From contig NW_003128863.1 of the NCBI RefSeq assembly GCF_000003605.2, positions 567,217 to 596,577 of the forward strand: DNA of 29,361 nucleotides. Direction: 5' to 3'. The DNA is from Saccoglossus kowalevskii. Lineage: Eukaryota > Hemichordata > Enteropneusta > Harrimaniidae. The stretch's first letter is position 1. Every line of letters starts with the position of its first letter. Below are positions 957-29,119 of the stretch, one piece after another. A model generated the notes under the pieces. The model made no database searches, was not told the DNA's origin, and worked only from the letters and a program-made list of their open reading frames with translations. Both the position numbers and the translations under genes were made by a program.

Positions 957-1133
957 CTGAAATGCAAAGTTTGTCATTGTCTGTACCCCAAACCGCGTTT
1001 TTCTCACAGACAACCTCATCTGTAGTTTGGGACACATATCCTTCATCACATGTAATAGCACACTTAGAACCCTGTGTATTACTACAAGGCTGCTTCACAC
1101 TACCATGTGCAAATACGGTGGGACACGTACCGT
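957..1133 (-). CDS. Exon 28 (module B): CCP/sushi domain 2, last exon seen
   Basis: 177 bases, phase 1-1, residues 1728-1786. [39 protein letters not shown] and a final LCIS. Six cysteines with the conserved Trp. The donor G|GTGGGT leaves phase 1, so the gene goes on past the left edge: more modules, a membrane anchor or a tail. No acceptable next exon is seen at 1-956. Confidence 0.91.
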
Positions 1134-4100
1134 CTGAAAAAATAAATGAAAGAGTCCCCACTAAATATATAGTGACGATCGAACAACTAGAATAGAATGG
1201 TGTATGAGAGTATACAAAAACATTAAATCTAATGTGGTTTTCGGCAATATTATATCGTATTATTATGCATATCAAACACGTGAAACACGTGTCAATCGTA
1301 GAATGCATTTAAGAAACCAAACACTGACCTCGATTACAAAGTGATTCGGTAGGTATATTCCATTCACCATTTTCTTGGCACATAACAGATTGTTTGGTTG
1401 TTGCAAAATAACCCGCGTCACAGCTGTATATGCAACTATTACCGTCTCTGTTGTCACATGCACCTAGTACACTACCACCATTAAACGTTAGGGGACACCT
1501 ATAAACTGTAATAAAACGGACAATTTTACAATAATCATTCTAACATTGGTATCTGTATCATAGAATAGACGAATCAGCGTCACATTTGGGTGAAGGATTT
1601 TGCAAAATAGAGCAGTATTATCACATTGAATGACGTAATGATGTTAGTTATAGCCTCATACCTGTTAGACATTCAGGGATATCTTCGGAACATAGACATT
1701 CAGTACCATGAATTGTGTTTATACAAATACCTCCACATGTACCATACAAATCGCATGGCGCTGAAATAGAATACAATTTTACGCACATAAACATTACATG
1801 TAGTGGGAATTTGTGAACTTATACCCAAAAGTGGTTGGATAATGGAAATATAGTTATGTTGAATAAACTGCTATTTTAACTAAAAGAATACACGCGAATG
1901 ACCTCATATGACATTGGGGCAACAACGTCGTTAAGCTTTAGAGCGGTGAACAATAATCCAGATACCTGGAAAGTAGATAGAACGGCCCTCTTCAATGTTA
2001 TGATACAGTAATTACAGATATATACTACCACTGCAGGGACATATTGTTTATATGTGTATACTGGAAACATCACAGTTAAAACTCAATATTGTACAAGTAA
2101 ATAACGTGTTCTTCTTTAATATTAAGCGATTGTGTGCGTGTACACTTCTTGTAGTATTCCTCGGTGTGCTGTCATGATTTATATTTCTGCTTGTTGGTAG
2201 TTGCCATGACATTCACTGATAACTGCTGGCTACTTAAGGCCAGATGGCAGGACTGGCTGAGATCTGTCGACACGTTCTCATGAGCTTGTTATTCTCAAGC
2301 TTATGCGGCATCTTGGAGGATATATGGTCAGAGTCCAGAAAGAATGATGTGTATATTAAATGTCAAATGTGGAATGTTATTGCAATATCGTTGGCGCCTA
2401 TAAATATAAACTACGTTGACACTATGATAGTAGTTTTCCTAATGCAGTAACAATTAATCAATTGTGTTATGACGTGTAAAACTTTCGGGTGATTGGCTGT
2501 TTGATTGGAGGCAACGCCTTGCAGATTTGATACTTCCTTGTAATTGGCTAAGAAGTTGAGGAGTTAATAAAGTGATTTGAAGCTGTCTTGGCGAACGAGT
2601 ACGAGGCAGTAGGAGAATCGGAGGTGACACGAATTGAGCTTCTGTGTTTTTTGTTAATCCAACGTGGAGAACATTCGAATCTCGGGTACCTAAGTGAAGG
2701 GTTTCAAGACATCAAATTTACCCATTACAGTGCACCTAAAACTATCAATTTTTAATTATTCGGAAACCGAAAAAAAAAACGCTTTATCAAAAGTGTGGAG
2801 GGACTATTTTACTGACAAAAAAAATACTCACCGTTGGACAAGGGTTGTATGCTTTTGTGAAAGAATGTAAGTGCTGTTATCTTCGATTCAACATAAATTG
2901 ATCGGATGTGATCATGACTTCCAATTTCATATATGCTAATTTTCTTGGCGTCGTACCTCGCAACAAATAGGAAGTCCTAACAATGATAATGAAATTAGAA
3001 GACAAATCGTTAGGGTTATAACAAAAAACTCACAATTACGTACATTACTGGCGAAATGCTGTGATAATTAGTGAACTATAACCTGAAGAAAATATTACAG
3101 ATTTTATAAATATGCTTTTATATCTAGTTTAGTTGACTTCACCATATTTTCTTATATTATCATTGTGCCGCAATCCAGACGATAATCACACAGCTCTTAC
3201 CTGAAATATTGTCAGTCCTGAGAATTCTGTTTTATCCTCAGACGTATAAAAAATAAAATTTTCTCTATTATTTCCATCAAAGTCAACTGATATAATTTTC
3301 TTTTCTCCATCATCTGCCCAGTATATTCTACATTGAACAAATCATATATTATTTTCACAAGATCAATAACACGATTAACTCGGTTTATAAAGTACAGATG
3401 CAATAATCTATAACGATCTAATCCGTATATTATATGTTTAGCATGGATGCTCGTGTACAGCACCAAATCGTATATTTTACGTTACGACGCGTCTTCACCT
3501 CAGCAACGGCGCAATGTAAAAATGCAAGTAAATACAATCGCACAAATGGCGAGGGTAATACCTTGTCAAGTCAAAGTTAACATGTACAATCAATGCTCGA
3601 GTACGGCATCTAATCGCTAAGCTCTACGACGCGTATGCCCCTCAGTCACAGACGAGCATCTTCGCCAGCCATGGACCATTTATTTGGCCGAAACCTCAAC
3701 ATTAACCCTTGGCAGATTTCACCACGATTTACTGTATGTCGCACGCCCTCAAACGATTATAAGATTCACTTCGGCTAATTTGCATCACCCAATCAGAAAC
3801 GACACATTACTTGGTAAAATTTAGGTAAAATTAGAATTATGGAATATAGAAATGAATGTCAAAAAACGCTTAGTGCTTATTCTGAGGGAAACAATTCCTC
3901 TAAGTACAGTGTTGCAACAAAGACCGAATCGGGCAAGTCGAAATGTTAGCAGTTTGCACAAATATTTAGATATTCCACCGTCTTCATTCACTTGCCCATA
4001 AACAATTTTCAACGATGGAATAAGAAATTTCGGAAACGTGTCAACGAATATAGACCTTCTGCTTTTTCCTCAGTGTGAATCAGCGCAAAGCCCGGCGCAA

Positions 4101-7100
4101 AGCCTACACGTCGCCATTGTTTTTATATGTGCTGATTGGTGGCACCAACTCCTTGGCTCACCCAATCAAATGACTCGATTTAACTGCAGTGAAATACAGC
4201 TTTTCCTAACATGAAATGACTGGCTTTAGCGAAACCGTGCGATTCGGACGATGTCGGGTGAGCGAGCATCGGTTCAACTCACACATGTTTACTTTGTTTT
4301 GACATAGCATTTAACATGCCATACATTCGGTGTCAGTCACTTACTTTCCTTTCTATTTAAACAGCGACTATGAGTTTACAATTACTTTCTGAGCCCCAAA
4401 AAGGGATGCTTAAACCTCAAACAACTATTTATTGGTTGTCTGAGCTTAAACCTGCTTATTACGTGCAGCGATCGTGAACCCGTCCACGCCGTGGACATTT
4501 AGCTAGCCGATTCGGTGCCGTGCGTGAGCGTTGGTTTGCGTCACGCAAAGGTACGTGTTTACTTTGATTCAATTTACCTTGCGTGTTTTCGATTTTATTT
4601 AAATGGCACCTAGTACTTTAAAGTTACGTACATGTGAAGGTAATACGGAATAAGTTTAATAGATTGTCGACTGAATACCAAACAAATAACAGAAATGATC
4701 TTCATAGAGCCTACATATTATCCCAGACAACCAATATTATATATTCAACTACGAAATGTTTCTGAGGATTGTGCTATGTCATTTGAAAATAAATACTTTG
4801 ACTGTCTAACTTTATAGAGACACGCTTTTAAAACGATACTATGGCATACAACGAACAAATTATTTTTACCTGTCCTTGTTAAAGTCAATAGCAAGCTGTG
4901 TTGGATTAACTATCCCCTCAGAAGCGATCACTATTCGATGCCTTCCGTGTAGATCGGATCGCTCAATCAGGGGATATTCACCGCTGTTACTCCAAAATAG
5001 ATACCTGTGAAGTGAACAGATTATTACCTAGACATCACTCGGCAAAACCATCCTGCGCTATATGTCGTCACCATCAAAATCCTCATGAACATTCAGAGCC
5101 AATGTTTAGGTTTCATTGTTGCATAGTTATGGCCGGAAATGTGTTTGGTGATCCTGTGACATTGTCATATGACTCAAAGAGATGGTCAGGTCGTGCGAAT
5201 CAAATCGCATGTAGAATTTAGAAATATAGATTATAAAGGCGATACACATTTATCATTTGGAGATATATTATGAACATATATTGTTATTGTGGATGGGTCT
5301 TGCGGGTACATACGTTGAAAGTTTAAATGTACTAATAGTTATTTGCTCTTTGAATGTATATTGCAATTAAAAACATACACAAACATATACTGTGACAATA
5401 ACCTTTGATCACACCTTAAAATGTGGCTAAGTATTGAAGTGAAATGAGAAATACGTGTGCCTAGATTATAGAGACTGATTAACTGGCAAAAATGCATAGT
5501 ACACATTGCGACCTTTGCTCTAAACATATAACCAGGTTTTGTGAAGGCCCAAACTATTCCATATGTAGGAATGGGCATGGAGGTGAAAAAAAACCTCCAT
5601 GAGCTGAGCAAACATAAAAAAAAATGCACTAGGATCTTGAACTTTGACCTATTGTCCCAGCTCCCGTGAGTAGCATGGGGAACTTATATACGAATTTTAA
5701 AGGCCTGGCTGTTTTTTTCTATTGTAGATATATACTAAACATAAACAAAATGTTGGATCCAAAATACAGTCACGTCTGTGGTGTATTTAACCTCTGTTTC
5801 ACTTTCAATCAACAATTTTATCAAATCATTGTGAAACATCTACGGGTAGAGAGCGGAAGGTGGACATCGGGTGACAGGATGTACCAGACAAATTATGTCT
5901 ACTTAATTTGCGGGTGTTTCTGTTATACAAACCAGTTAGTTTTGAGGTTTGGTGCCAAAGAGAAATAAAACTGTTTTGAGATGCTGTTAATTCAAATATT
6001 GTAGTTAATGTATATCGACAGTGGACGGCTGCAATGCATATAAAGTAGAAATTCCTGAAAACTGAGAAACTGGTTTTCTTGACTGCATTCAGGAATGCAT
6101 TTTGGATTTTACGAGTATCTAAAACTTTTAATAAGTTTTCTGAGTGCTATCTACGAAAAGGTCATCGAGTCAGGAGTCTTGACAAATTGAATTTACATTT
6201 GAAAAGAAAATTTTACATTCCATAGATTAAAAACTGTGTGTGAAGAAATTCTACCATTCTATCTTTTGGAATTATTTTGATCCGGAAAGTTATCGTAGTG
6301 TAAAAACTAGAATTTTGGAACCCTATCATCGCTTTCAGTCCAGAAAAACAAAATCATATAAGATTGGTATTGGCAATATGAGATCGTCAGCAAAAACACC
6401 CCGCACTCCTGCGCCACATTGCTTCGATCGAATCAATAACAATTCATTTCACATGAATTTAAAAAGTGGCAAACTATCTGAAGCAAGCACAGCATCACAG
6501 TTCAGCGCTCAATTCATAAACCACTGCATATAAAATACTTACATTTTTGTTGCATGGACTGCTATTGCCTTTGCCTCTGGTGTATCTTGTGACACCAAGG
6601 TAGCCACGTGGTCTCCAAGCAGTGTGGCTACGTTAATAGAAGATTGTGTGTCGGTGATCAACGTCCAGTATAAATTTGATCCAATCCAGTCAACTGATAG
6701 ATCTGTTATTTTAAAAGAAAATATTGTTATTACCGATATTTATAACAAACATTTGATTATGCTAGGGATACCTGGGTAAGCTTAAGGTAGCAACAGGGGA
6801 ATTCTGGTCAAATGTTCATGTTTTTTTTTAATAATTGGTATATCACTTTCTTTTAGTGTATTCTTTCAGTACAACTAATAAAAAAAGTATTTTAACCCAT
6901 GAGTGAAAGAAACGGATCCGATTGAGTGGGTACAGCCGAAAATTAAATCCTGTTTCAGATGATTTAGAAGAAGCAACTTTTGTACGGAGAAGATTGATTT
7001 GTATAGTGACAGCGACACTGTCATTTTCATTGACGAAGAAGCACGCTAATTTAATTGTCTTAAATATATCTGCTTCCTGGGATTTCTCTTATAACTGACG

Positions 7101-10100
7101 TCCGTCTATTTGTGTCATTTACGAATTGACTGTTCAGTCATTTTTGTGGCTTGGCCAATTACTTTCAAACTTGACACGCTAGTCAGGCCTGTACTCTAAT
7201 TAAATAGAAGAAAACTGAAAAAATATTGATCCCTGGCCACAGCCGAAAACTTCTTTTCTACCTTCGCGAGGAATTCATCTCCTCCAATAAATCTATAAAA
7301 AAATCTCGAAAATGTCTCATTCTACTCTGCTTAAATATGTGGCCAAACTTACTTTTCTGGTAACTATTTGTTGTTGACAAGCAAGAATTCGAGGTAACAT
7401 TTTCGTCAGAATTGGAATCAGGATAAACAAATTATTATCCCGGTGGATAGCTCACGGGCATGTATATGTAATGTGTAATATTGAGAAAAAAATTAGAGCG
7501 CCATCAAACAGTGGTTTGTAGTTTCGTCATAAATGGTACCCTAAAATGAATTATTGACGTAAAACACGTTCAAGACACATATGAGTCTAAACAGCAGACA
7601 TCATACTCTATAACATTAAAATAAACATTCAAACATGAAGACACGCTCTGTTTCTTCTATTCGCACGGGCGAGAAGTGTATCTTCATCTTCGCCAGCCAA
7701 GGAACATTTATTCGGCCGAAGCCTCAACATTAATCATTGGCAGATTTCACCACGATTTACTGTATGTCGCACGCCCTCAAACGATTATAAGATTTACTTC
7801 GGCTCATTTGCATCACCCAATCAGAACTCGCGACAGAAATTATACATTGCTCGGTAAAATTACAATGGCGGAATCAAATAAACGTGTTGCTGGCTTTCTC
7901 TCTGAACGAGCTTACTGATCATCAAAAGAAAGTGCTTAGTGCTGTATCTGAGAAAAATTACGCGTTTGTTGCAAACACAGTTTCTCGACTGTGTTGCAAT
8001 GAAGACCTAATCGGGCAAGCCGATATGTTATCAGTTTCGACAGTTTTGCTAGTTTACTAAAACATAGTTAGCACAAATATTTAGACATTCCATCTTCCTC
8101 ATTCATTTGCCCACAATTTTCAAAGTTGGGATAAGAAATTTTGGAAACACGACAACGAATATAGACCTTTTGTTCTTGACTCCCAGGGAAACAGTGCCTA
8201 CACGTCGCCATTGTTTTTTAATCTGTGACGAGCTCCCCGATCTTCACATTTATGATACACATTTCTAAAATGAAATTATTAAACATCAATGAAATAATGC
8301 ATTAAGTACAATTGTGCTTTCAACATATTATATCAGAAAATTTGGATCAATGTGTAACTTTTGAATATTATTCTACAAAAAGGGTTGTGCAGTAAGCGTC
8401 TTCCAGTACACTTAAAACTAATATCAATAGCGTGATGAATCAATATTAGAATACAAATCAACAAAGTTTCTTCGATAACTTCAATATTTACATAATCTAT
8501 TCCACTTTTTATCTTTTTGTTTCGTTTTGTTTTTTGTAATTTGTCAAAATATTATTAGTAGCTCAATCTAATTTACGTACGGTCGAAAATCTGGGGTCGC
8601 TATCGAGTATCAACACAGAAGATAAGTATGTGACTTGTGAGTATAATGTGTACTTTATAATGCGGTTAGATCACGAACTTATGACACTACATACCGGATA
8701 CCTGTCCTCCCAGTATGATATCCTGCCAGTGATTATTATCATATCTCAGCCGCGCTCGTTGAATACCTCCATGCTCTTCCGAATGTACAAATATATATTC
8801 TGCATACACGTCGAAGTCCAAGGTGTTCACAGTGAAGTCGGTAAAACATGATACCGTGAATGTCTCTGGTAAGTGTTCATGCCCTATATTGGCGGGGATC
8901 TGGCACAAGTAACCGCCCTCTGCGGAGAACACCAGCTCATGGTCGAGTATAATAGACTCATCTGTGCAGAGAAAGTTATTTTGTGTGGAAGTGGCGCATA
9001 GATAATGATAATCCAGGAAAGATGACGATGACGATAAAATAATCATGACATATTCACCAGGACAACAATATATACGAAAGTGAATATCCGACATGTCAAA
9101 GTGAACATGATATGAACACGTGTATTATAGAGTTGTGATAATCTATGTGATTTGATATAGAGATAATAAAACATACCTTCCTCGCACCTACGTCTGTCAC
9201 TTTTCAACTTGTAACCATGGTTACACAGACATTTGTATCCATTTGGATCACCAACACATATATGGGAGCAAGGGGAACTGCTACACGCAACTATTACAAG
9301 AACAAAAACAACTAAAATTACTGCCGGTAAAACAGTGATTGAAAAAAAAACATACGTCGAATAAGACAATAGTATTAAATAACATTTGTAGTTAAACTTG
9401 ATAAGTAAATCCAAATACAAGCTGCCGTAAAATTACATGTTGTAGCGCTCGCCTGGATTGTATGCTATCACATAGATTCGGGTCAAATTGAAAAACTGCT
9501 AGATAACATGTCAAATTAATATATTTTCATTTATGTAGTTATATAATTGCAATAAATACAATAAGGTAACAGTTCTCATTATATTTAACGGGATAATCGT
9601 ATTATCATGTGCTCAGTGACATGCTCCATGAAAGCGTCATTTGGCCCTCCTAGACTCCTAGACTCTAATTACATAACTGAAATAAATCAGCGAATAAAAT
9701 GCAATATGTTTGACAAATTGTCTACATGAAGTCGATCAAGTATATCACGGGTGGGATCTCACGTGATCTGACACTACAGGACGAAAAACACGATATGAAT
9801 TTTCTTGGTACATCTTGATATTGTTTTCTACCAGTATTTTATCTGCATTTTAATGTGTAAAACACACAATGATAACATGGCCATGAATGTGTGTTTTTGC
9901 CGATGATGGCGCGATCACAATGGGTTTCGTTTTCTTTATGAGACGGCGGTCGACGTGCCATACATGTGCGACATTATTCTTGAAAAAAACTGGCGCCTCT
10001 ACTACGCTTGCGCCGCGCCGCTGATGGTGGTTACGGGACAAAGGTAGCGGATCGAAATTTACCTACGTGAATTTTGGTCACTGCGAAACAGTCAAAGTTA

Positions 10101-15820: not shown

Positions 15821-15916
<96 letters not shown>

Positions 15917-18900: not shown

Positions 18901-21900
18901 CACCAAATGTTAGCATATTCAAATCCAGATTGAAAACTCATCTGTTTTGTCAAGCATTCCTGTGAACTATGGCCGTCATTGGGCATCATTTGATCCGCAG
19001 TAGCCATATATTATCTACACTCAACGTATATAACACTCCAAATTCATGGAAACACTTACATTGAAGTTGCATGGACGGCAATCGCCTTTGGTTCGCGTAT
19101 ATCTTGTGAAATCAATGTAGTCACGTGCTCTCCTTCCAGTGTTGACACTTTAATAGATGCAGTTTCATCTTTCCCGGATGTCCAGTATAAATTGGACCCA
19201 ATCCAATCAACCGATATGCCTGTGAATAACAATACATATAATAGTCGGCAAATAAAAGCGTATTCCTTAATTTGACACATAATTACAAAAAAGTAACATT
19301 TTAATCTTTGCACACAGGATTGCAAATACCAAACATATCATTTAAGTTATGTCATAACGTTAATTTAATGCATGTATTCTACAGTTTCTGACTGCCGAAA
19401 TTTAGTGAATCAATTTTCCTACAATTTGTAATTTGAGCTTTAAACCTTTAGGTCATGTACTTATTATCTCCGCCAAATGTTTTTATTTTGTCGACGTCGG
19501 TGTGTGTGTTTGTATGCATGTGCGTCTGTCTGCCCGTGAAAGAAGGCACAATTGTTTACGTTTTTAGAGAGATCAGAATGTAGTTGCCAGGGAGATGGCA
19601 ATTTTCGACACTGTTTCCAGGTAATGTCCAGAAGCGGCTCTCGTTGAGACAATAGAAAAAGCGCAGATTGTTGGGATAGATCTGCCATGTTACCATGGAC
19701 ACAGGGCAAAGCACAATTTTCAAGAGTGGTTGCCCTAGCGACAAGAAACCATCTATTGGATTATGGGAGAGATTTTGACTCGATTGTCATGTAAATAAGA
19801 AACATTTTAATTATTCATTGCAAGATAAAAAGTCACCAACGAGTGATATTTAGATGGGTTGTCAAATCTTAATATAGGATCAATGCCTGATTCGTTGTGT
19901 TAATATAGTATTCAACACTCAATTTTGACTTTCTTTCCACAAACAATGTGCTTATATGTAAATAGAATACATACTATTACATTATGATAGAAGTCTTAGT
20001 AAGGATACTTAGTAAGGATAAGTACTTTGCAGTTGTGGCGGAGTGTCTTCTTTTGCATGTAATGTATGTACTTGATTCGCGTGGGTAGTATACATTACTA
20101 ACTTATTCAATTTACACTAAACTAGGTATACTAATACTATCATATATTCTCGGACTTGATAAAATAGTAAAGGTATACTGAAAATGTCGTTTCTTTCACA
20201 GATTAAGTTGTTTAATATGTAATACTATATAGTCAATTCTTAGTGCGTGCACTCATAAGTGCACTGACTTACATATCGTGGCAGTTCAGCCTAAACGAAA
20301 TTCCTTGTATGGTAAAAAAAATATTAACTTACACGACGGGTCACCCTCCAAAGTAACATGCTCCCACTCGTTATCGTCTTCGTATCTAAGTCGAGAGCGC
20401 TGAATACCTGGATATTGCTTCGAATGCACAAATATGTATTCACCATACACGTCGAAATCAATGGTGTTCACAGTGAAGTCAGAAAAGCACGATACCGTGA
20501 AGGTCTCTGGTAAGTGTTCATGCCCTATATTGGCGGGCACCTGGCACAAGTAACCGCCCTCTACGGAGAAAACCAGCTCATGGTCGAGTATAATAGACTC
20601 ATCTGTAAAGATAAATGCGTTTAAGGAGGTTAGTATGAGCGAAAGAGTTGTTGTTGTGACATAATGCACATTTGATTGTCTTAGAAGAACATACATATGG
20701 ATCCATACAACATACCTTCCTCGCATCTTCGTCCGTCATTTTTCAACTTGTAGCCATGGTTACACAGACACTTGTATCCACTCGGATCACCAACACACAT
20801 GTGAGAGCAAGGGGAACTACTACAGGAAACTGTTCGAAGATAAAGATAAATAGCCAAAATAAAATAAAATAAAATAAAATAAAATAAAATAAAATAAAAT
20901 AAAATAAAATAAAATAAAATAAAATAAAATAAAATAAAATAAAATAAAATAAAAAAATAAAATAAAATAAAATAAAATAAAATAAAATAAAATAAAATAA
21001 AATAAAATAAAATAAAATAAAACAAAATAAAATAAAATAAGCGTGGGACAGTGCGACGAATGTACGTACCGGAAATTCAAATAAGCATGCTATTCCATCT
21101 AACAGACGTGCGCATTTACATATTACGCTATTCCATCCATCATACGTATATTAATGTTATTGAAATTGGAAAACCGTTAATGACTTACAGTCTTCTATTG
21201 GTTGTCTCGCCTCGTCAAAGTAAACAAGACCATTGGGGTCGTAGTTGTTACTGATTTGGAGAACATCCATATTTGTGTCAAATGGCACTAGATGTATTAC
21301 GTCATGTTCTCGGTCATTCGCAAAAAATCCGAATTCCTGGTGAAACGATTGAAATTAATTACATTGAATTGTAATATTAAAATACAAACTGATGGTCCGC
21401 ATTCAATCTTACAGAATGCTATTTTATTCCGTAAATAAGAAAAACAAAAGTACAGGATTATTTATTGTGTGATTTTTATATGTGTATATGCTTTACGTTA
21501 TCTGGTGTTTATCAAGACAACTGTCCACTCCTAATTTACTCACATAATCGATATCCATGCTAAATATTCTCCCGAAACTGTCTGGCTCGTGAACAACCAC
21601 CTGTGGATCGGGAGTGGCATCGTTTAGGTTGAGACGCATGATTTTTTTATTCTGCTCGTCCGACCAATACAACCTACGAACAAACCGATTAATCAACTAT
21701 TAGTACCCTCTTATACAAATAATAAACAATTTTTTTGAACAGGTAGAGTGAAACATAATAAATCGCAACTGTAGCTGTAGCTGTGCAGCGCGCGTTTTAA
21801 TTCCGTGGAAACTTACAATGTGTTTTACGCGCGTTGTACGCGTCGCTTGGAACCCACCGTGGTTCGATGACAACTGACATTACATATTGCGACCGTTGTA

Positions 21901-24900
21901 CATATACTGCGTCGCAATATTCAATATCATTACTTACATATTGTAACGCAAATCAAGAGTCAGTCCCACCGGAGTTCCCAACACGTCACTTCCGACCAAT
22001 ACGGTTCGGCTTTCGCCGGATAATGTTGCCCTCTCTATTTTGTTTTCATTGCCCCAGTCACACCAGTAAAGATATCTGCAAATAAATATATAATTTTTTT
22101 CTCTTAGTATTATAATGTATTTTATATGAGAGTGGCGCTATACGAAATTTGTTTTCTATAAATATTGTATTCACATATTCCCTGCGAAAATATTTGTCAT
22201 TCACCCCTCTTATTTTAAATTATATAGGTGCCATTCAAATATTGTTTGCATTTTTGTTTCAAAAACATTGCACAATTTACAGTTCATATGTTCGAGGTAG
22301 GAGCCATGGCAATAAGAAGCAGGGATACTTTTTAAAAAACAACTGCCCAACCATGATAAATACACTTCAACAAAAATGTGTACGCGTTGGAGTTGAAATA
22401 ATCACATTATATTCTGTCGCTCGGGATAAAAAAGTGATTATATCCATATTGTTGTGCATCCTTATGTATAGCCATTACCGTGACCTTTGACCCAATTAGC
22501 CTATACTTCCAGGGACATTAAACAACTATCAAACAAGTATAGCAATTCTCCCTGAGGCAAATGTATGTTCGCAAAGCGTTGTTATGATCTTAACCTTTGT
22601 TCCTAAAAACCCGCAAAAGAGTATATATAAAAAGGCCGTCGTTCGGGTTCAGAGGGCTCTAAATTAAGGTATTTATTATTGTGTGCGTGAAATTTAAAAT
22701 AAAATCACACAAAATGTAGTAGGCTACCCATGTAGACATGCTCGTATTTCATGTCCTATGTCTTGTACTTTTAAAGTCAGCAGTGCGTAATATATATTTT
22801 TACTCGAAATTCATTTTCGAAACAAATATATTTACATACGCTTATACGGGTATATATATGGATTTCATAAGCATTGACAATAGACTGCGCCTCAGCAGTG
22901 GCACACCAAATGATCAGCCCGACTAATTTTTTTTTCATTGGCTGAAAGTGTGTCACATGGACGGTGTCGTGATTGCTCGTTGGATGTGCCTAAGCGGTTG
23001 TCATGTGGTTTGCTCACATTTTCGTAATTGCATCGCTGCTTGCTGTTGGTCAATCTCCCGAATGTCAGTTGACGCATTTCGTTGTTCGAAGTAGTGCCTA
23101 CATTGACTAATGAAGGAAGGTGTGCCATTTATTCCAATTAATTTATTAAAATTTCAAAACGCGGCATCCCGGGTTTGTGTATTCTTGTGATTGAAAAATA
23201 AAATCCATGATTACCCCCCTAAATTCAAAATCTGATGATTTCTGATTTGATTTGATCAGCAGAGTACCGCTCTGTTAGATTATTTGCTTTCGAATGTGTG
23301 TAATAACAATTTTTGTTGTTGCATTGTATTGGTTTCACACTTCCAAAACCGCATTTAAAGTTGATGACGGTTTGTCGATGATCAAATTTTCAACAAGTTA
23401 TTAAACAATCGAGTTTAAAGAAAGCACTTTTTTCAGTAGCAAAGTCTTGCATACTTCAAAACTGATTACCAATATCATAGTTTATTAGAATACTGCTTTA
23501 GTGAACACTAACCATCGAAACACTATGACATCATGTCTTTCATATGATTTTGCAAAACAAAATAAAATGTTCTAAAACACGGTATTTTTCTAAATCTACT
23601 GAAATTTACTCACATTTTGTTTATTTTTCACGTGTAAAACATAGTTTTATTCGAGAAAAAAAATCAGAAAGTTCAATCATAATATTCATAAAGTGATAAA
23701 AAGTGATAAAATGGATGATAACATGTGATGTTCATTAACATTATGAGGTTTGGAGATAAGTGTCAACGAACATTGGTCCTTAAGTTGGTTCACGTCATAA
23801 ATTAGATAAATAATTCATAAATCATTACCCTTTGATTGGATCACAGACAATACCAGCTGGTTTATCAAGACCAGTCGTAATCAGAGTACGGTGATTCGTT
23901 CCATTGTAGTTGGCAACTTTTATCCAGTTGTACTCGGCGTCTGTCCAATAGACATGTTTAGTCAACCAATCTACTGCTATGCCTTCAACCGTGGTTGACG
24001 TGCCGGTGTGGACAAACGATCTTTGACCATTGACCCAATCCGCCACATAGATTGCTTTATGCCCCGGATCACTCCAGAAGAAGATCAAGTCCATATAGTC
24101 AAAGCCCAGCACCATCTTCTCTGAATTGTGTAGAAATTCACGATGAACTGCTTTATATGGTACATTTGGACCGCTAGTCCGTGCACGATCATAAAGAGCT
24201 TGCCCGGAGTAATTGTAATATATAACCCGTGAGTCGGAGTCGCTTAGCGATGGCAGTGCTGTGGTGAGATGGTCAGCCACCAATAACAGGGGACCGATGG
24301 GGTTATCATAATAAATATTACCTGTAAATTATATAACATATTGTTAAAAAATAATGTTGGTCTGAGTGTTGAAAGATTTGTGATCACGAAGTTATGGTTA
24401 CAAAACGTCGTATCGGGTCGTCTTGTGTCAGGTCGGGTCGTGTCGTCACGGTGTCGGGTACTTATTCGGAAATTTCGTGGTAGGGGTGCGGCTCGTGGTG
24501 GCAACTGCGAAATTCTTGAATTATCTACGTGTTTGATGCGGGTCCTATGCGACGTACCGTGTTCAATTGTTTGCATGAAATTTGAATGCGCAACGACTAT
24601 TGGGCGTAACGTTGGCGATGTCAGAACGCATTTATCGGCCTTGTTCGTAAACGTGTTACATTAATAGGGCACGTCAGCAAAAATAAGCAATATAATAAAA
24701 ATAAAATTGCGCGAGTGCAGGGAGTTGGTTACTAGTCAATAATACGTCGTGATACAACATTTTGCAAAATATTCAGTCCTCGTGGCTCGTTGTATGCTTT
24801 GCGACTTACCGCACCATTATTGTATGCGGTCATGGTGTATGATTGATGATTGGAGAGGTACGACATGGGTAAAAGAATTAATCTAGTAGGAATTATTGAT

Positions 24901-27815
24901 TAATATTAATATTAATTCATTTGGCCTAAAATGGATTGAGCGTCTGTGGATTAGTCTTACCGCATTGACTGATCCCTTCATCGTCTGTAATATCCACTGC
25001 ATTAAACACTGCCAACAGATCTCTACCCCAGGAAAATAAGCTGCCATGTGCACAGCCATCAACTAAATTCGTCGCTATGTCACTCAATGTCAGCCCATAA
25101 TCCCATAAATTGAAATCGGTCAATTCGCCCACAAACGCCTGAAATCTTGTGAAATTCCCTCCCATTGTGTCCTGCTCCTGTCCTATTATAAAGACCCCAT
25201 GCGGCGCGATACTTAGCCCGGTTTTGTGCTCGAAACCGGAGCCAATTTCTTCCCCATCCTGCGAGAGTAACCATTCACCGTTGATACTCCACCACGACAT
25301 GCATAGATGGTGCCACTGTCCGTCATTCAGCTGGTGGTCGACCACGGAAGGAGAGCTGTCCTTTATTTTCAGTTTTAGCGTTGCGTCGGAAAGCCCGCTT
25401 AGACGGATCTCATCATCTCTCCTCGCAACTGCGTAGGAGATCACGGTCCAAGCACCAGTGTGGGTAGTCTTCATCCACATACAAGCGCTGACAGACGTGA
25501 GTCGAGGTATGGAGACCGTTTCCGTGAGTACTGCCAGCGAGTCTCTATCAAACTGTACTTTCTTGCCCTTGACAGAGACTGACGACCATGAAACAAAAAA
25601 AAAATAATTGAAAGATATAACAAAAATGATCAGAGACGGGCGACATACAATGGTTGATTTTTTATTGCAATAAATTAAAAAAATATGGTTTTAAAATCAT
25701 CATAACTAATTTGAAAGTTATATTAATATCCCTCTGGTTAATAAGTTTTACTAATTAATAAGCTATAAATCGCAATAACGTTACATTTAATAAATATCAT
25801 GATACAATTTGTATTAGCTGTGGACAATTCAACAAATTGTAAAAATTGATGTTATTATTTACAATCTTATTAAGAGTAAAGTAGAGTTTAAAACGGGGGA
25901 GTTTTCACCTGCATATACGACAGACGGCCATAGTGTCTACCCATGAGCCTTTGCGTTTTTAGCATGAGAATTCCCTCTCGTGCGCAAGTGACGAACTCTC
26001 CGCTTTTACATTAACACATCACCATCTAACGTACGTGAGTTTATTTCATACGAGCAATTCCCGCACCAATGTCTAGCATTTCTCGTATCCATAAATACAA
26101 CCTGTCGTCATCATCGTCAAAATTATTTTATTTATTATCTAGACGCCTGCGCGGTGTTTGCTCTGTATATTCTTCACCCATCATACTTTGTGAAATTTTC
26201 CTGAGGGCATTGACAAATTGTCAAATAAGAATTATCGGCATAGCATATACCGAGTAGAAAAGTATACCTAATCTTACTCTTAATAGCCTTGAAACCACAT
26301 TTTCGCGAGTATCGTCACGGTCAAGCAAACTGTCATGAGATTGAACGGCGTATATCACGACTATTAAACCGAAGAAACGTGGTAAGTCCGCGACCGGTCA
26401 TACTTCGTTAACGCATTTCTTCAATAATAATTAATTACATAACATCATGGACAAAATTTGAATATATTATATTTTCATTGGTTATTCAACCACTAGATGA
26501 TCTATCAATTTTTGCTTACTTGTTGAATAGAAAGTTTTAAATTTCCTCTTTGTCTCTAAACCCTGAACGTTGGGCAAGTTTAGTCGTGTGGCCAGACTGT
26601 AATCTCATAATCTCAATGATATATTTTATGAGATTTGAACTGACGATTTACAAATTACCTGTACACGCATGGCCTGGGAAATGGACTACTTGACAAAGGC
26701 ATAAGGAAATGTGCCTTGACACTCGACTGAACGATGAAACGACCATAAAATGGCTAAATATAGGTTATTATAATTATGTCTCGCTCTACAATTAAACTAC
26801 CCATAGGCGACAATGTAAACACTTGAAAAGCAGTAGTACGCTACACAGAGCTAAATGAGACACGTACATAAAATTTAAAACAGCTTTAAAAAAGATTTGT
26901 ATAATTCTTAGAATTAAATAGTAAACGCGCCATTGCAGAAGTGGAAAACCTTAAAATAGCCACTGTGCTGATTCAGTTATTTGAATAAGAAAAATTAACG
27001 AAGACGGCTGATCACTCTAAATGTATCGGTCCGCAACTTGAAAACCAATTTAATTTCGCTAGTGTCCCATTAAATACCACAATGTGACATACTTAGCATA
27101 TCATTCCGGGCAACAAGTTGTTTTCAAAACAGAGAGAAATACAATTGTGCTGACGTGCCCTTGCGCCTTGCTACTAATTCAGGGCGGACCCAAACTTTAA
27201 AATCGCCAGACTAAGTTAGATCCGCCACTGTACTTGTGTCGTGAAACCGTGTGTTATTTACGTTCAAGAATTAATCGGTTAGCGAAGACGGAAACACTCG
27301 TCTGTCAATGCAATGTCCTACTTTGTGGAAGGGACACATAGGCTGCACAAAATGGCCGATCATTAGAAACATGACATACGTCACCACTCAAAACACTAAC
27401 CAGTGTTACGCGTTAGCTAATGGCGAAAGACCTAACTGTAGAAACAAGAACTAGGTAGGGACGTGACAATAATTGAATCCACTGTGATTCCACCCTAGGT
27501 GTATAGTATAAGGCAGAAGGAGCTGCTGTTTTTCGGCCGTCAAGTAACGTGTCAAATCTATTATTTTTAATTATTAATATAATGCTTACGGTAATTAGGG
27601 CTCTATGTGATAATATATATGTGTTTTTTTTCTGACGTCATTTATAATCAACTGCACCCAGTCAGCTACATGGATTATGTATCGAACCCCAGTAATTAAT
27701 ATGATTGCTTACCGGTAGTCTGTGTTAACACTATTGTCCATGCCGTCGACATAAGAAGTGTACCGACTGTTAACAGATGTGCTGAGATTCGCATACTTGG
27801 AAAGTCGGAAGACAT
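957..27815 (-). CDS. Multi-exon gene: pentraxin plus two propeller-EGF-propeller-EGF-CCP-CCP modules (3' end beyond window)
   Basis: Whole-gene entry; exons are listed separately. Twenty-eight exons chain in one open frame (5359 coding bases, at least 1786 codons) with matching phases at every junction. Residues 1-34 are a signal peptide, 35-240 a pentraxin domain, 241-1011 module A, 1012-1786 module B. Each module holds a six-bladed LDL-receptor class B (YWTD) propeller, an EGF, a second diverged propeller, an EGF and two CCP domains. The protein enters the secretory pathway. Ligand and role are unknown; family knowledge suggests extracellular recognition or adhesion. No membrane segment is seen. 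The last exon ends in phase 1 at a good donor, so more exons follow to the left. The alternative is two tandem genes, A (27815 to about 15123) and B (14316 onward). Exon content is solid; the A-to-B join is inferred. Confidence 0.8.
1329..1505 (-). CDS. Exon 27 (module B): CCP/sushi domain 1
   Basis: 177 bases, phase 1-1, residues 1669-1727. [40 protein letters not shown] and a final LCNR. Six cysteines with the conserved Trp. Acceptor ATTACAG, donor G|GTCAGT. Confidence 0.92.
1662..1760 (-). CDS. Exon 26 (module B): EGF-like domain 2
   Basis: 99 bases, phase 1-1, residues 1636-1668. [29 protein letters not shown]: six cysteines in EGF order, same length as exon 13. Acceptor ATTTCAG, donor G|GTATGA. 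Confidence 0.87.
1761..2831 (-). other. Intron 25 (1071 bases)
   Basis: GTGAGT donor and ATTTCAG acceptor. Around 2490-2560 there are several ATTGG (CCAAT-type) pentamers close together, but no further promoter evidence. No exon is seen. Confidence 0.55.
2832..2976 (-). CDS. Exon 25 (module B): last blade of propeller 2
   Basis: 145 bases, phase 0 in and phase 1 out, residues 1588-1635. [20 protein letters not shown] and [13 protein letters not shown] match exon 12. Acceptor TGTTAG, donor G|GTGAGT. Confidence 0.86.
3201..3327 (-). CDS. Exon 24 (module B): propeller 2 blade
   Basis: 127 bases, phase 2 in and phase 0 out, residues 1545-1587. [18 protein letters not shown] and FSGLTIFQ match exon 11; the class B motif reads YWAD. 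Acceptor AATGTAG, donor GTAAGA. Confidence 0.88.
3328..4869 (-). other. Intron 23 (1542 bases) with dispersed repeat copy 1
   Basis: GTAAAA donor, AATGTAG acceptor. It contains repeat copy 1. A perfect 7-bp inverted repeat GTCCACG-C-CGTGGAC lies at 4482-4496. No other feature is seen. Confidence 0.6.
3657..4125. repeat. Dispersed repeat, copy 1 (about 0.47 kb)
   Basis: Homologous along its length to 7685-8218 in direct orientation, with small indels. Shared blocks include TTCGCCAGCC, the segment around 3714-3790 ending TTTGCATCACCCAATCAGAA, the segment with CGGGCAAG, and CCTACACGTCGCCATTGTTT. The ends are my estimates from where the two copies stop matching. Confidence 0.8.
4870..5004 (-). 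CDS. Exon 23 (module B): propeller 2 blade
   Basis: 135 bases, phase 2-2, residues 1500-1545. [24 protein letters not shown] and [11 protein letters not shown] match exon 10. The class B motif reads FWSN, losing the final Asp. Donor AG|GTAAAA. Confidence 0.88.
5005..6542 (-). other. Intron 22 (1538 bases)
   Basis: GTAAGT donor and TCACAG acceptor. Short open frames in it have no recognisable domain. No repeat is recognised. Confidence 0.6.
6543..6702 (-). CDS. Exon 22 (module B): propeller 2 blade
   Basis: 160 bases, phase 1 in and phase 2 out, residues 1447-1500. Reads [15 protein letters not shown], then [18 protein letters not shown] and [10 protein letters not shown] class B repeat with YWTL. 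Donor AT|GTAAGT; same length as exon 9. Confidence 0.9.
6703..8694 (-). other. Intron 21 (1992 bases) with dispersed repeat copy 2
   Basis: GTATGT donor and TAACAG acceptor. It carries the second copy of a repeat also found in intron 23. The rest is AT-rich with no coding signal. Confidence 0.6.
7685..8218. repeat. Dispersed repeat, copy 2 (about 0.53 kb)
   Basis: Same orientation and order as copy 1: CATCTTCGCCAGCC at the left, a near-identical block with GGCAGATTTCACCACGATTT and CGCACGCCCTCAAACG, and CCTACACGTCGCCATTGTTT at the right. An internal ACAATGGCG (about 7862) is the inverse of CGCCATTGT near the right end. A short open frame starts at that ATG but breaks after 18 codons. Looks like a non-autonomous transposon or other interspersed repeat; family not recognised. 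Confidence 0.8.
8695..8961 (-). CDS. Exon 21 (module B): start of propeller 2
   Basis: 267 bases, phase 1-1, residues 1358-1446. [46 protein letters not shown] and [13 protein letters not shown] mirror exon 8, one codon shorter. I chose the donor G|GTATGT at 8694, not the GTATCC nine bases earlier, because it gives phase 1 and matches module A. Confidence 0.87.
9177..9290 (-). CDS. Exon 20 (module B): EGF-like domain 1
   Basis: 114 bases, phase 1-1, residues 1320-1357. [26 protein letters not shown] and a final RRRC give the six EGF cysteines of the LRP-type EGF. Nearly the same as exon 7. Donor G|GTATGT. Confidence 0.94.
9291..10491 (-). other. Intron 19 (1201 bases)
   Basis: GTAAGT donor and GTAATAG acceptor. 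Unlike the matching intron of module A (359 bases) it has no AAAAT array. No coding or repeat feature is recognised. Confidence 0.6.
10492..10639 (-). CDS. Exon 19 (module B): closing blade of propeller 1
   Basis: 148 bases, phase 0 in and phase 1 out, residues 1271-1319. Begins [19 protein letters not shown] and ends [15 protein letters not shown], like exon 6. Donor T|GTAAGT leads to the EGF exon. Confidence 0.9.
10824..10953 (-). CDS. Exon 18 (module B): propeller 1 blade
   Basis: 130 bases, phase 2 in and phase 0 out, residues 1227-1270. Reads [27 protein letters not shown] and IFSLDIDY. Acceptor TACGCAG, donor GTAAGT. Confidence 0.9.
11212..11364 (-). CDS. Exon 17 (module B): propeller 1 blade
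   Basis: 153 bases, phase 2-2, residues 1176-1227. Reads [18 protein letters not shown], then [18 protein letters not shown] and LTLDM. A class B repeat with YWCD. Compared with exon 4 it carries 15 extra bases coding for AEADV inside a blade loop. Donor GT|GTAAGT. Confidence 0.9.
11365..13135 (-). other. Intron 16 (1771 bases) with a short perfect hairpin
   Basis: GTAACT donor and TTTGTAG acceptor. It contains an 11-bp perfect inverted repeat with a one-base centre at 12924-12946 (separate entry). No other exon or repeat is recognised. Confidence 0.55.
12924..12946. repeat. Perfect 11-bp inverted repeat
   Basis: CACAGTCCCTC, one A, then GAGGGACTGTG. The arms are flanked on both outer sides by ATACAAC-like direct repeats. 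GC-rich in an AT-rich intron. It could be a collapsed MITE, a transposon end or a protein-binding palindrome. Confidence 0.85.
13136..13628 (-). CDS. Exon 16 (module B): propeller 1, first blades
   Basis: 493 bases, phase 1 in and phase 2 out, residues 1012-1176. Same layout as exon 3: [70 protein letters not shown]. The YWTD and GITVDW motifs define class B repeats. The frame is in phase with exon 15 of module A. Confidence 0.92.
14281..14316 (-). CDS. Possible alternative first exon: signal-peptide-like mini-ORF
   Basis: ATG at 14316 with A at -3 opens [12 protein letters not shown], a convincing hydrophobic signal core, and is followed by a perfect donor GTAAGT in phase 0. Exon 16 needs phase 1, so this splice would hit a stop. 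Use of the weaker GT four bases further on (exon ending at 14277, before GTTGTT) would give phase 1 and a short signal peptide joined in frame to propeller 1 of module B. It is either an alternative promoter and start, a separate gene B, or chance. Confidence 0.3.
15067..15072 (-). terminator. Possible intronic polyadenylation signal AATAAA
   Basis: AATAAA on the minus strand lies about 50 bases after the TAG that ends a read-through of exon 15. It could end a short secreted form with module A only. The hexamer alone is weak evidence in AT-rich DNA. Confidence 0.25.
15141..15317 (-). CDS. Exon 15 (module A): CCP/sushi domain 2
   Basis: 177 bases, phase 1-1, residues 953-1011. Reads [42 protein letters not shown] and a final ICVS. 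Six cysteines plus the conserved Trp. The donor A|GTGAGTATTC is strong. If it is not used, the frame reads seven more codons and stops at TAG (15121-15123). Confidence 0.92.
15318..16397 (-). other. Intron 14 (1080 bases) with (TA)n array
   Basis: GTCAGT donor, TTTCAG acceptor. Apart from the TA array listed separately I see no feature. Confidence 0.6.
15822..15914. repeat. (TA)n microsatellite, 93 bp
   Basis: An uninterrupted alternating TA run in intron 14. It can form cruciform or slipped structures and is likely to be length-polymorphic. The Ile/Tyr open frame through it is an artefact. Confidence 0.98.
16398..16574 (-). CDS. Exon 14 (module A): CCP/sushi domain 1
   Basis: 177 bases, phase 1-1, residues 894-952. 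CCP pattern: [37 protein letters not shown] and a final LCTP. Six cysteines rather than the usual four, with the conserved Trp before the last Cys. Single-exon, phase 1-1 CCPs are usual. Acceptor CTGTAG, donor G|GTCAGT. Confidence 0.93.
16987..17085 (-). CDS. Exon 13 (module A): EGF-like domain 2
   Basis: 99 bases, phase 1-1, residues 861-893. Six cysteines: [26 protein letters not shown] short EGF (about 33 residues) with the C-x-C and final Cys of the family. Acceptor TTTCAG, donor G|GTAATC. Same length in module B. Confidence 0.87.
17172..17316 (-). CDS. Exon 12 (module A): last blade of propeller 2
   Basis: 145 bases, phase 0 in and phase 1 out, residues 813-860. Begins [20 protein letters not shown] and ends [13 protein letters not shown], directly before an EGF. 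It is the most diverged propeller exon between modules, but FVARY, ISIYEI/ITIYEI and L.FFH.S.QPL are kept. Donor G|GTGAGT. Confidence 0.87.
17317..17990 (-). other. Intron 11 (674 bases)
   Basis: GTACGT donor, TGCTAG acceptor. A full palindromic cAMP-response-element core TGACGTCA (17430-17437) overlaps an E-box CACGTG (17436-17441). Otherwise AT-rich, with no coding signal. Confidence 0.55.
17991..18117 (-). CDS. Exon 11 (module A): propeller 2 blade
   Basis: 127 bases, phase 2 in and phase 0 out, residues 770-812. Begins [18 protein letters not shown] and ends FTGLTIFQ. The class B motif reads YWGD. Acceptor AAATAG, donor GTACGT. Confidence 0.88.
18370..18504 (-). CDS. Exon 10 (module A): propeller 2 blade
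   Basis: 135 bases, phase 2-2, residues 725-770. Reads [36 protein letters not shown]: a class B repeat with FWSD. The donor is AG|GTTTGG, poor at +3 to +6; the module B copy has AG|GTAAAA at the same place. Identical exon length in both modules supports the boundary. Confidence 0.87.
18604..18965 (+). mobile_element. L2/CR1-like LINE 3' fragment (C-terminus of reverse transcriptase ORF)
   Basis: On the plus strand, antisense to the host gene and inside intron 9. The conceptual frame has [44 protein letters not shown] and [14 protein letters not shown], the conserved C-terminal tail of L2/CR1/Jockey-group ORF2. The tryptophan expected in the 'xLWNxLP' motif is a TGA stop at 18870-18872; the frame then stays open to a TGA at 18963-18965, probably the natural end. 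It is 5'-truncated and dead. Homology becomes clear from about 18630. Confidence 0.88.
19060..19219 (-). CDS. Exon 9 (module A): propeller 2 blade
   Basis: 160 bases, phase 1 in and phase 2 out, residues 672-725. Reads [18 protein letters not shown], then [16 protein letters not shown] and PKAIAVHA: a clear class B repeat with YWTS. Donor AT|GTAAGT. The module B exon is the same length. Confidence 0.9.
19220..20332 (-). other. Intron 8 (1113 bases)
   Basis: GTAAGT donor, TTCACAG acceptor. No exon, repeat family or RNA gene is recognised. Confidence 0.6.
20333..20602 (-). CDS. Exon 8 (module A): start of propeller 2
   Basis: 270 bases, phase 1-1, residues 582-671. Begins [19 protein letters not shown] and runs through [27 protein letters not shown] and IQRSRLRY. 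It lacks YWTD, but its place between an EGF and clear class B repeats, and the [12 protein letters not shown] strand, make it the first two blades of a diverged propeller. It is strongly conserved between modules. Donor T|GTAAGT. Confidence 0.88.
20716..20829 (-). CDS. Exon 7 (module A): EGF-like domain 1
   Basis: 114 bases, phase 1-1, residues 544-581. Six cysteines in EGF order: [25 protein letters not shown]. The pattern CSHxC..GYxCxCxxGYxL is the LRP/LDL-receptor type EGF that packs against the preceding YWTD propeller. The acceptor GAACAG lies just downstream of the ATTTT array; donor GTATGT. By hand count about 14 of 114 bases differ from the module B copy. Confidence 0.94.
20856..21040. 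repeat. (AAAAT)n microsatellite, 185 bp
   Basis: About 37 units of AAAAT, with an extra-A interruption near 20951 and one C substitution near 21023. In the gene's sense it reads (ATTTT)n inside intron 6 and ends 27 bases upstream of the 5' edge of the first EGF exon. In some minus-strand frames it translates to a phenylalanine/leucine/tyrosine-rich run that looks like a membrane helix but is only the repeat. Confidence 0.97.
21189..21336 (-). CDS. Exon 6 (module A): closing blade of propeller 1
   Basis: 148 bases, phase 0 in and phase 1 out, residues 495-543. Starts [19 protein letters not shown] and ends [15 protein letters not shown], just before the EGF. In LRP propellers the last blade likewise ends with a hydrophobic strand and a short linker into an EGF. 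Donor T|GTAAGT. Confidence 0.9.
21544..21673 (-). CDS. Exon 5 (module A): propeller 1 blade
   Basis: 130 bases, phase 2 in and phase 0 out, residues 451-494. Begins [16 protein letters not shown] (YWSD blade) and ends [11 protein letters not shown]. Acceptor TCGTAG, donor GTGAGT. The module B exon is also 130 bases. Confidence 0.9.
21938..22075 (-). CDS. Exon 4 (module A): propeller 1 blade
   Basis: 138 bases, phase 2-2, residues 405-451. Reads [18 protein letters not shown], then [19 protein letters not shown]: one class B repeat with YWCD in place of YWTD and the GLTLD turn. Acceptor TTTGCAG, donor AT|GTAAGT. The module B copy has a 15-base in-frame insertion in this exon. Confidence 0.9.
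22076..23828 (-). other. Intron 3 (1753 bases)
   Basis: GTAATG donor and TTGCAG acceptor. The sequence is AT-rich. Short open frames on either strand show no domain, biased composition or splice context. Nothing further is supported. Confidence 0.6.
23829..24321 (-). CDS. Exon 3 (module A): propeller 1, first blades
   Basis: 493 bases, phase 1 in and phase 2 out, residues 241-405. It opens the first YWTD-type propeller: [20 protein letters not shown], then blades marked by [33 protein letters not shown] and [19 protein letters not shown]. This is the standard LDL-receptor class B pattern (YWTD, then GLAVDW, then LxxP). An NYS glycosylation sequon is present. The donor is G|GTAATG. Its module B counterpart (13136-13628) is exactly the same length, which supports both boundaries. 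Confidence 0.92.
24322..24960 (-). other. Intron 2 (639 bases) with GC-rich imperfect repeat
   Basis: GTAAGA donor and TTTACAG acceptor, phase 1. Around 24413-24462 there is a short degenerate run of TCGGGTCG/GTCGTGTCG units, more GC-rich than the surroundings. A plus-strand frame across it gives an Arg-rich peptide that resembles nothing known to me. No exon is seen. Confidence 0.5.
24961..25578 (-). CDS. Exon 2: complete pentraxin domain
   Basis: A single 618-base phase 1-1 exon encoding residues 35-240. Pentraxin hallmarks in order: the first disulfide Cys in [18 protein letters not shown], matching the calcium-site segment; [13 protein letters not shown] with the second Cys, close to the family signature HxCx(S/T)Wx[14 protein letters not shown] with the E-Q-D calcium ligands; and [12 protein letters not shown]. 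Length is normal for the family (about 200 residues). Of the classic C-reactive protein calcium ligands the equivalents of D60, E138, Q139, D140 and Q150 appear kept; N61 reads D and E147 reads T. An NFT glycosylation sequon lies in the calcium loop. Pentraxins usually bind ligands in a calcium-dependent way as discs of five; here the domain is fused to a long mosaic tail. The domain is certain, the ligand unknown. Confidence 0.93.
25579..27712 (-). other. Intron 1 (2134 bases)
   Basis: GTAAGC donor, GTCAG acceptor. AT-rich, with no coding exon that I can support. It holds a short possible transposon remnant near 27180-27230 (separate entry). A distal regulatory element could be here but nothing in the sequence marks one. 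Confidence 0.6.
27180..27230. mobile_element. Possible decayed MITE, about 51 bp
   Basis: CAGGGCGGACC at the left end and GATCCGCCACTG (reverse complement CAGTGGCGGATC) at the right form imperfect inverted termini. CAGTGGCGGATC-type ends are common on animal DNA transposons and their MITEs. The body is very short and I see no clear target-site duplication, so this may be an internally deleted remnant or chance. Confidence 0.3.
27713..27815 (-). CDS. Exon 1: signal peptide
   Basis: Encodes residues 1-34 plus one base. The start ATG at 27815 has A at -3 (AACCATG) and an in-frame stop shortly upstream. The N-terminus [11 protein letters not shown] is followed by a hydrophobic stretch ([18 protein letters not shown]), a usual signal-peptide layout with cleavage probably near STA-W or VLT-Q. 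A second in-frame ATG (residue 8) could also serve as start. The exon ends G|GTAAGC in phase 1, which fits the phase-1 acceptor of the pentraxin exon across an intron of 2134 bases. Confidence 0.72.
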
Positions 27816-29119
27816 GGTTGCGATTGCGCCGCGGACAGGGTGGTTTGCGCTCCACCGTATACTGGACGTGCTTTAAAGCTATGAATGTGCTTATACCAAT
27901 CGGCAGTGAAGCGTAGAGTTGTTATTGTCGGACGGCATACAAAAAAAATCACATTAGCATTCTGTTCACAAAACAACAGTAGCGACCACGATTTAGTAGC
28001 GCGAACGACTTTTTCACTAGTTGAATTTCGTCGTAAAAAAGGGAGCCTAAACCTTTCGAGTAGGGTGAACTATTAACTAAGCCTTTACGCGTCATTCCTT
28101 ACACCATACCCAGCCATGACACCGTATTGTGCATAGATAATGTCAATTTCATTGTAATGATTGTCGTGGTCTCACTGTGTTTGTACATCACCGAGTCGTT
28201 TTAACGAATCATTCGTGTTCAATGAACCCATTAAATGACATACGATGCACCGCCATTCATGTATAATACACATTCCTGTACTAGATGCATTTGCATATTT
28301 AAATATTGATTAGTTGTCACACTTATGAAATTGTATTTTACGTTATAAACATGAATATAACACAACCACAGAGTTGTTTATTTCACCAACAATGCTTAAA
28401 ATGCTCCACTACTTCATGTTGACGTTACAGACGTGCTTCCTCCGTAGCGGGCGTGACTTCAAAGAACTGTGACATTGTACATGCCTGGAAGTCTCACGCC
28501 ACCCATTAGCCTATGAGCGTTCGTGCGTGGTTGTTGCTAGCCAGTGGTTTTTCTTTCACCTTGTTTTATGTGAAACTGGATGTATAAGAGCATACTCCAA
28601 TTACGTCATCTGTTGAACCTGTGTGTGTAGCTTTGTTTATTGACAAGTTCTGGTGACCTGTGGATGTTGGCAACCCTTAATTAGACACTTCCAAACTAGC
28701 TGCTTTTCTGAGAATATTGAAGGTGGAAAGACAAATCTATGTGTTTTGTTTACATCCATTTCGTAGGAGTTTGAGCTGGCCAACATGTGTTTTACTGTCC
28801 TGGATTCTATAACATACATGTGGTTTCCACAAATTAAAACAATATTTTGATCTTTAAGAAATTCGCCCAAATGCTAACATTGTCGTCTATTGAGTTCTAA
28901 TTAGTGGTATGAGACCTGAATTCATGAAGTCGAAGTGCGCAGAAATTAGCAATCTTTTTTTTTTATTTTTATTTTACAACTTTTCTGGCATCGTATCCCG
29001 TGTTGACAAATTGAAGTGATTTGTTATCCCTGAATGTCATATTTTGCTATGCATTTCACCATTGCGGCCAATCGCTTGTATTTTGGTTGAAGAAAAATTT
29101 GAAAACTACCGTACAGAAA
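27816..29119. other. Upstream flank of the gene
   Basis: The 5' flank of the minus-strand gene. Besides the possible TATA/CCAAT pair I see no gene, RNA or tandem repeat. Open frames on both strands lack recognisable domains. Confidence 0.5.
27889..27900 (-). promoter_or_regulatory. Possible core promoter: TATA-like box with inverted CCAAT
   Basis: Read on the minus strand, TATAAG lies at 27895-27890, about 75 bases before the ATG, directly preceded by ATTGG (an inverted CCAAT box). An in-frame TAA at about 27875 separates this from the chosen ATG. Placement suits a TATA box with a short 5'UTR, but such short motifs occur by chance in AT-rich DNA and an upstream non-coding exon cannot be excluded. 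Confidence 0.3.

Follow-up and report, generated by a model that had tools for sequence, protein, structure and literature searches.

The window, that is, the whole 29,361-nucleotide stretch of Saccoglossus kowalevskii DNA analyzed here, carries on its minus strand a chain of 28 exons that runs from 27815 to 957, with GT-AG boundaries at every intron. Splice sites were placed on collinear matches between the translated open frames of the two window halves and were scored with a small hand-made position matrix, not with a trained program. The exon chain is real and intact; its frame contains 0 stops in 1,786 codons, and the phases match at 27 of 27 joins. The first-pass annotation had drawn a signal peptide, a pentraxin and two repeated modules into one chain over 957 to 27815, which our model reproduced, with the minus strand added. 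Because corresponding introns of the two modules (copies A and B) have the same phase, only three joins test the chain itself, namely, signal peptide to pentraxin, pentraxin to exon A1, and exon A13 to exon B1, all of them in phase 1. The single chain across both copies is best regarded as an in-frame possibility read from the sequence, i.e., a putative transcript. A gene on the plus strand was rejected: on inspection by eye, none of its open frames of 38 residues or more contained a named domain, and the domain exons all lie on the minus strand.

The candidate first exon (27713 to 27815; minus strand, like all exons below) would start at 27815 or 27794 and ends in a phase-1 donor, GTAAGC, scoring 4.9. 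Its signal peptide, judged by hydropathy alone, is modest (KD9 of 2.17). One other ATG in the 3.8 kb upstream, at 26746 and likewise before the pentraxin, equals it with a phase-1 donor that scores 4.9 and exceeds it slightly in hydropathy. The pentraxin domain occupies one 618-base exon with phase 1-1 ends (24961 to 25578). Copy A then provides a first YWTD propeller (exons A1 to A4; 21189 to 24321), EGF 1 (A5; 20716 to 20829), a second propeller (A6 to A10; 17172 to 20602), EGF 2 (A11; 16987 to 17085), CCP 1 (A12; 16398 to 16574), and CCP 2 (A13; 15141 to 15317), the last with a phase-1 donor, GTGAGT, that scores 5.1. After an interval of 1.5 kb (13629 to 15140), which is an intron under a one-gene model, copy B repeats this layout with a first propeller entered through a phase-1 acceptor (B1 to B4; 10492 to 13628), EGF 1 (B5; 9177 to 9290), a second propeller (B6 to B10; 2832 to 8961), EGF 2 (B11; 1662 to 1760), CCP 1 (B12; 1329 to 1505), and CCP 2 (B13; 957 to 1133). 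B13 ends in a phase-1 donor (GTGGGT; score of 5.7), so the chain may extend past the window; in read-through, its frame stops soon, with AATAAA at 753, 673, and 668. Elsewhere in the window, three plus-strand stretches (1 to 714, 18501 to 18869, and 29017 to 29310) look by eye like pieces of LINE-type reverse transcriptase or of its C-terminal region, with no Pfam match at E values up to 0.01. Simple repeats occur within introns at about 15800 to 15950 (TA type) and at about 20750 to 21080, the latter reading FILFY on the minus strand.

A Pfam search of the 1,786-residue model at E values up to 1 returned Pentaxin, Ldl_recept_b, and Sushi in the order that the first-pass annotation had anticipated, and these matches, together with the in-phase joins, place the pentraxin within the chain as that annotation had it. 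Pentaxin scored 98.4 bits against a cut-off of 25, covering profile positions 13 to 180 of 194. The two halves scored 121.7 and 88.9 bits for Ldl_recept_b (four passing stretches per half) and 36.7 and 34.2 bits for Sushi (two per half). The first propellers are supported by the copy match as well as by Pfam. Matches to EGF, FXa_inhibition, and cEGF all fell under the curated cut-offs, and the EGF domains were recognized by the six cysteines present in all four of their exons. The four CCPs likewise have six cysteines each, with identical spacing, which we take to resemble that of selectin-type CCPs. Each YWTD propeller is followed by an EGF domain, a feature of the LDL-receptor/LRP family. 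Within the window model there was no Pfam match at E values up to 1 to the LDL-receptor class A repeat and none to a VWA domain, propellers being found instead; the model also lacks an NPxY motif and, apart from its N terminus, any strongly hydrophobic 19-mer. Among solved structures, residues 71 to 649 of copy B matched LRP2 best (9i3v; E value of 8e-175), followed by LRP4 and LRP6, with nidogen behind. The first-pass annotation had named LRP4/5/6 and nidogen for such tandems; the nearest solved relative of the core is LRP2/megalin. The CCP part of copy B matches CR2 and DAF.

Comparison of translated open frames (E values up to 0.01) paired all 13 exons of copy A with those of copy B in the same order, and 528 of 769 aligned residues (68.7%) are identical. 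The dN and dS values between the copies are 0.211 and 0.920 (dN/dS of about 0.23), and the introns, beyond about 30 bases from the exons, are only about 30% identical, near chance. The collinear match and the constraint are far beyond chance. With dN/dS of about 0.23 and intron flanks that no longer align, both copies evolve as coding sequence, with their exons under selection; the block duplication appears old, with both copies retained. These data also bear on whether the locus could be degenerate or misassembled, i.e., a collapsed or chimeric tandem array devoid of a working product. Tandem paralogs are prone to such errors, and stretches adjoining the window read N. Nevertheless, the lack of any stop or frameshift in 28 exons, the canonical splice sites, and the selective constraint make this explanation very improbable.

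The pentraxin exon was examined in its genomic context, a 572-Mb assembly of 4,830 contigs in which the window lies on contig C2071. Its nearest solved match is neuronal pentraxin-1 (6ype; E value of 2e-33), with which it has the GQEQD motif in common; this motif has a calcium role. An NCBIfam search with the domain gave no match. The nearest relatives in the genome, on C2599 and C2722, are 46% and 42% identical to it. Counting the window's own, pentraxin-domain matches in the genome number at least 96 and Ldl_recept_b matches at least 45; among the matches listed, C2071 is the one contig where the two kinds lie within 100 kb of each other. A second pairing of this kind, on C3895, was discarded, as its weak pentraxin match lies more than 500 kb from the Ldl_recept_b matches. 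Large tandem arrays account for 31 (C4257) and 17 (C350) of the at least 96 pentraxin matches, a strong local expansion of this domain. From the mitochondrial contig of the same assembly (C4830), COX1 uses TGA for Trp and has ATA at ten positions that are mostly Ile in other animals; it contains a single AAA, at a Lys site, and neither AGA nor AGG. This code is Saccoglossus-like and, as read from one gene, makes an enteropneust hemichordate the most likely source. Two studies (PMC3121625, PMC2697986) give ATA as Ile in echinoderms and hemichordates alike and AAA as Lys in Saccoglossus, unlike the echinoderm code.

An alternative is that the signal-peptide exon and the pentraxin exon make up a short secreted pentraxin gene of their own, or that the pentraxin is an optional cassette, the main receptor product being free of it. 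The exon is symmetric, so that skipping preserves the frame and a pentraxin-less isoform may occur; moreover, the read-through frame stops about 11 codons past the donor, and pentraxin arrays are abundant in the genome. However, the sequence from this stop to A1 contains neither AATAAA nor ATTAAA, and the stretch from the pentraxin to A1 offers no start that is both signal-peptide-like and followed by a phase-1 donor. In addition, 7 of 8 other pentraxin loci inspected (8 of the at least 96 matches) have a GTAAG or GTGAG donor no more than 61 bases after the domain match, suggesting that pentraxin exons are, in general, probably spliced to a further exon; the donor of the window exon is of this kind and in phase 1. 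We therefore consider a separate or optional pentraxin unlikely and retain it as the head of the chain.

A genome search with the exon encoding the first propeller (P1) revealed 13 places, two of them in the window and the others 32 to 54% identical, with four on C1550, two on C2727, and five on further contigs. We recognized seven members of a same-genome LRP-CCP family, represented by the four P1 exons on C1550, the two on C2727, and one member on C941, which was counted although its P1 was not seen. Identity to the window in the P1 exon is 27 to 41% for this C1550/C2727/C941 family. The C1550 gene with P1 at 591.8 kb could be followed exon by exon as P1-EGF-P2-EGF-CCP-P3-TM-tail, where P2 and P3 denote the second and third propellers and TM a transmembrane helix, and its tail contains the motif NPIY. 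The four P1 exons of C1550 stand in a row at about 559 to 615 kb, and the tail of the TM gene carries KPIY as well as NPIY. Soon after its tail exon, at about 580.0 to 580.8 kb, lies a tandem DNA repeat that is open in several frames. CCP was followed by P3 in all four of the seven members that were followed to this point (two on C1550 and one each on C2727 and C941); one of the other three is mostly N over its stretch. These four show one CCP each versus two in the window copies; for two of them the count takes in the sequence directly before the CCP, and a genome search with both CCPs as query likewise listed one per paralog. The TM helix and tail were seen in one paralog, and a single tail query gave none in the other members. 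A phase-1 acceptor scoring above 1 precedes P1 in 4 of 6 paralog P1 exons, with none at a fifth and the sixth not evaluated. No signal peptide was found in the paralogs, and among the matches listed there was no pentraxin match on C1550, C2727, or C941.

The window gene shows the P1-EGF-P2-EGF-CCP order and the phase-1 entry intron of this family. On these grounds, its core is most likely a member of a same-genome family of LRP-type cell-surface receptors, and it looks like a derived one, with a pentraxin head, a doubled CCP, and a doubled P1-to-CCP block. The architecture had been put forward as new; this applies to the pentraxin-headed order and not to the core, which has company in the P1-EGF-P2-EGF-CCP-P3-TM-NPIY family of the same genome.

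Whether copies A and B belong to one gene or to two turns on the interval between A13 and B1. We found no third-propeller, TM, or tail homology there (tblastn; E values up to 1), so that by homology the next exon after A13 is B1, in phase. Although the introns are saturated, the donors of A13 and B13 have both stayed strong, which would be expected if the two sites are in use, and a single block duplication between two phase-1 introns would explain the layout without losses. The join itself is without precedent, as P3 and not P1 follows the CCP in all four paralogs checked. The C1550 cluster offers evidence in both directions. A P3 exon there has a phase-1 donor (4.6), and 1.2 kb further on the next P1 exon has a phase-1 acceptor (3.7), with no signal-peptide-like start in the gap, a hint that other members of the family may have their modules chained in frame; that case may also be two genes, as the gap holds two overlapping TM-like open stretches. 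Furthermore, at least one C1550 paralog ends as a gene of its own, its tail and stop coming well ahead of the next P1.

The latter observation speaks for two tandem genes in the window as well. Copy A would then end soon after A13, by read-through or with a short terminal exon, as a soluble product, and copy B would start within the 1.5-kb gap and either end likewise after B13 or run past the window to P3 and an anchor. Several signals in the gap fit this scheme. The A13 read-through reaches a stop with AATAAA at 15072, and a possible terminal exon would open with the acceptor at 14776 and reach a stop in frame, with AATAAA behind it at 14666; with a third AATAAA at 13677, the gap holds three against about 0.9 expected. 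A stop and three AATAAA (0.7 expected) also follow B13, which would allow an end after CCP 2 in both copies. Finally, two ATGs in the gap, at 14316 and 14646, are signal-peptide-like, and starts of neither kind turned up on the plus strand of the window.

Some points weigh against this scheme. ATG 14316 is strongly signal-peptide-like and has a donor at 14281 scoring 6.6 (0 of 300 shuffles gave one as strong), but this donor is in phase 0 and B1 needs phase 1. Its direct joining to B1 was rejected for this reason, and no bridging exon with splice scores above zero fits. The near-consensus donor and start at 14281 to 14316 (minus strand) may be the first exon of something unrecognized. ATG 14646 has a phase-1 donor, but a weak one (1.4), and such a start appeared in 7.7% of shuffles, as did the terminal-exon pattern in 13%. 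These rates serve as a guide only, because the shuffles preserve base composition and not dinucleotides, and the hydropathy and splice-score thresholds were set by hand, those for the candidates in this interval after the candidates had been seen. The A13 donor, moreover, remains at consensus. Taken together, one gene joining A and B appears reasonably probable, and two genes, although distinctly less so, would be the main contender.

Our best explanation, to which we assign a probability of about 0.5, is a single gene encoding a pentraxin-headed member of the local LRP-like receptor family that arose and works as follows. The family plan would be signal peptide-propeller 1-EGF-propeller 2-EGF-CCP-propeller 3-TM helix-NPxY tail, as put together from same-genome paralogs. 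Exon shuffling may have brought a symmetric phase 1-1 pentraxin exon into the phase-1 intron that precedes propeller 1; the CCP exon may have been doubled and the P1-to-CCP2 block duplicated in tandem between phase-1 introns, which would have kept the frame. In the protein, the pentraxin head would bind its ligand in a calcium-dependent manner, on microbes, debris, or glycans; rods of propellers and EGF domains might bind protein ligands and the CCPs opsonin or complement-like partners; and a P3-TM-NPxY end past the window would carry cargo into the cell, if the family end is kept. Such a protein in full, with the pentraxin head, four YWTD propellers in two blocks, four CCPs, and then P3, anchor, and NPxY tail, is a more tentative proposal than the single gene. 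The earlier suggestion of a secreted or anchored recognition molecule can be narrowed accordingly by the TM-NPIY tail of one paralog, which makes an anchored endocytic-type receptor likelier than a secreted matrix molecule; a soluble or matrix role would fit if both copies end after CCP 2.

If this full protein exists, a soluble-opsonin domain would be permanently fused to an LRP-type endocytic receptor, and recognition and uptake would need no separate bridging molecule. Vertebrate pentraxins and LRP-type scavenger receptors are known as distinct proteins. One study (PMC7609443) has LRP1 scavenging apoptotic material via pattern-recognition molecules, C1q among those studied. If fused, the acorn-worm gene would be a natural experiment on the coupling of recognition and uptake. 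The locus also marks a multicopy LRP-CCP receptor family in a nonchordate deuterostome and offers a clear exon-shuffling route, by phase 1-1 insertion plus phase-1 block duplication.

Among the openly accessible papers listed, none described this domain order as far as titles and the starts of abstracts show, in line with the first-pass annotation, which knew of no such protein. SVEP1/polydom, by its full name, likewise combines sushi, EGF, and pentraxin domains, but it has a VWA domain and its domain order differs. To our knowledge, SVEP1 is devoid of YWTD propellers. Pentraxins are known as short pentamers or as coiled-coil long pentraxins. The window domain is a whole pentraxin that has the GQEQD motif in common with neuronal pentraxin-1, but it would form the N-terminal head of a long mosaic protein. 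Within the LDL-receptor family, the LRP branch, LRP2/megalin in particular, has the same tandem of YWTD propeller-EGF-propeller-EGF, and the likeness may extend to an NPxY-type tail, which for the window gene is extrapolated from one same-genome paralog. In contrast to LRP2 and its branch, the window model has no class A repeat, places CCPs after the second EGF, and begins with a pentraxin. Its C1550/C2727/C941 relatives proceed from one CCP to P3, whereas the window has two CCPs and a pentraxin head. An LRP-type receptor that, as far as seen, is free of class A repeats and is equipped with CCPs and a shuffled pentraxin head would thus be a new combination.
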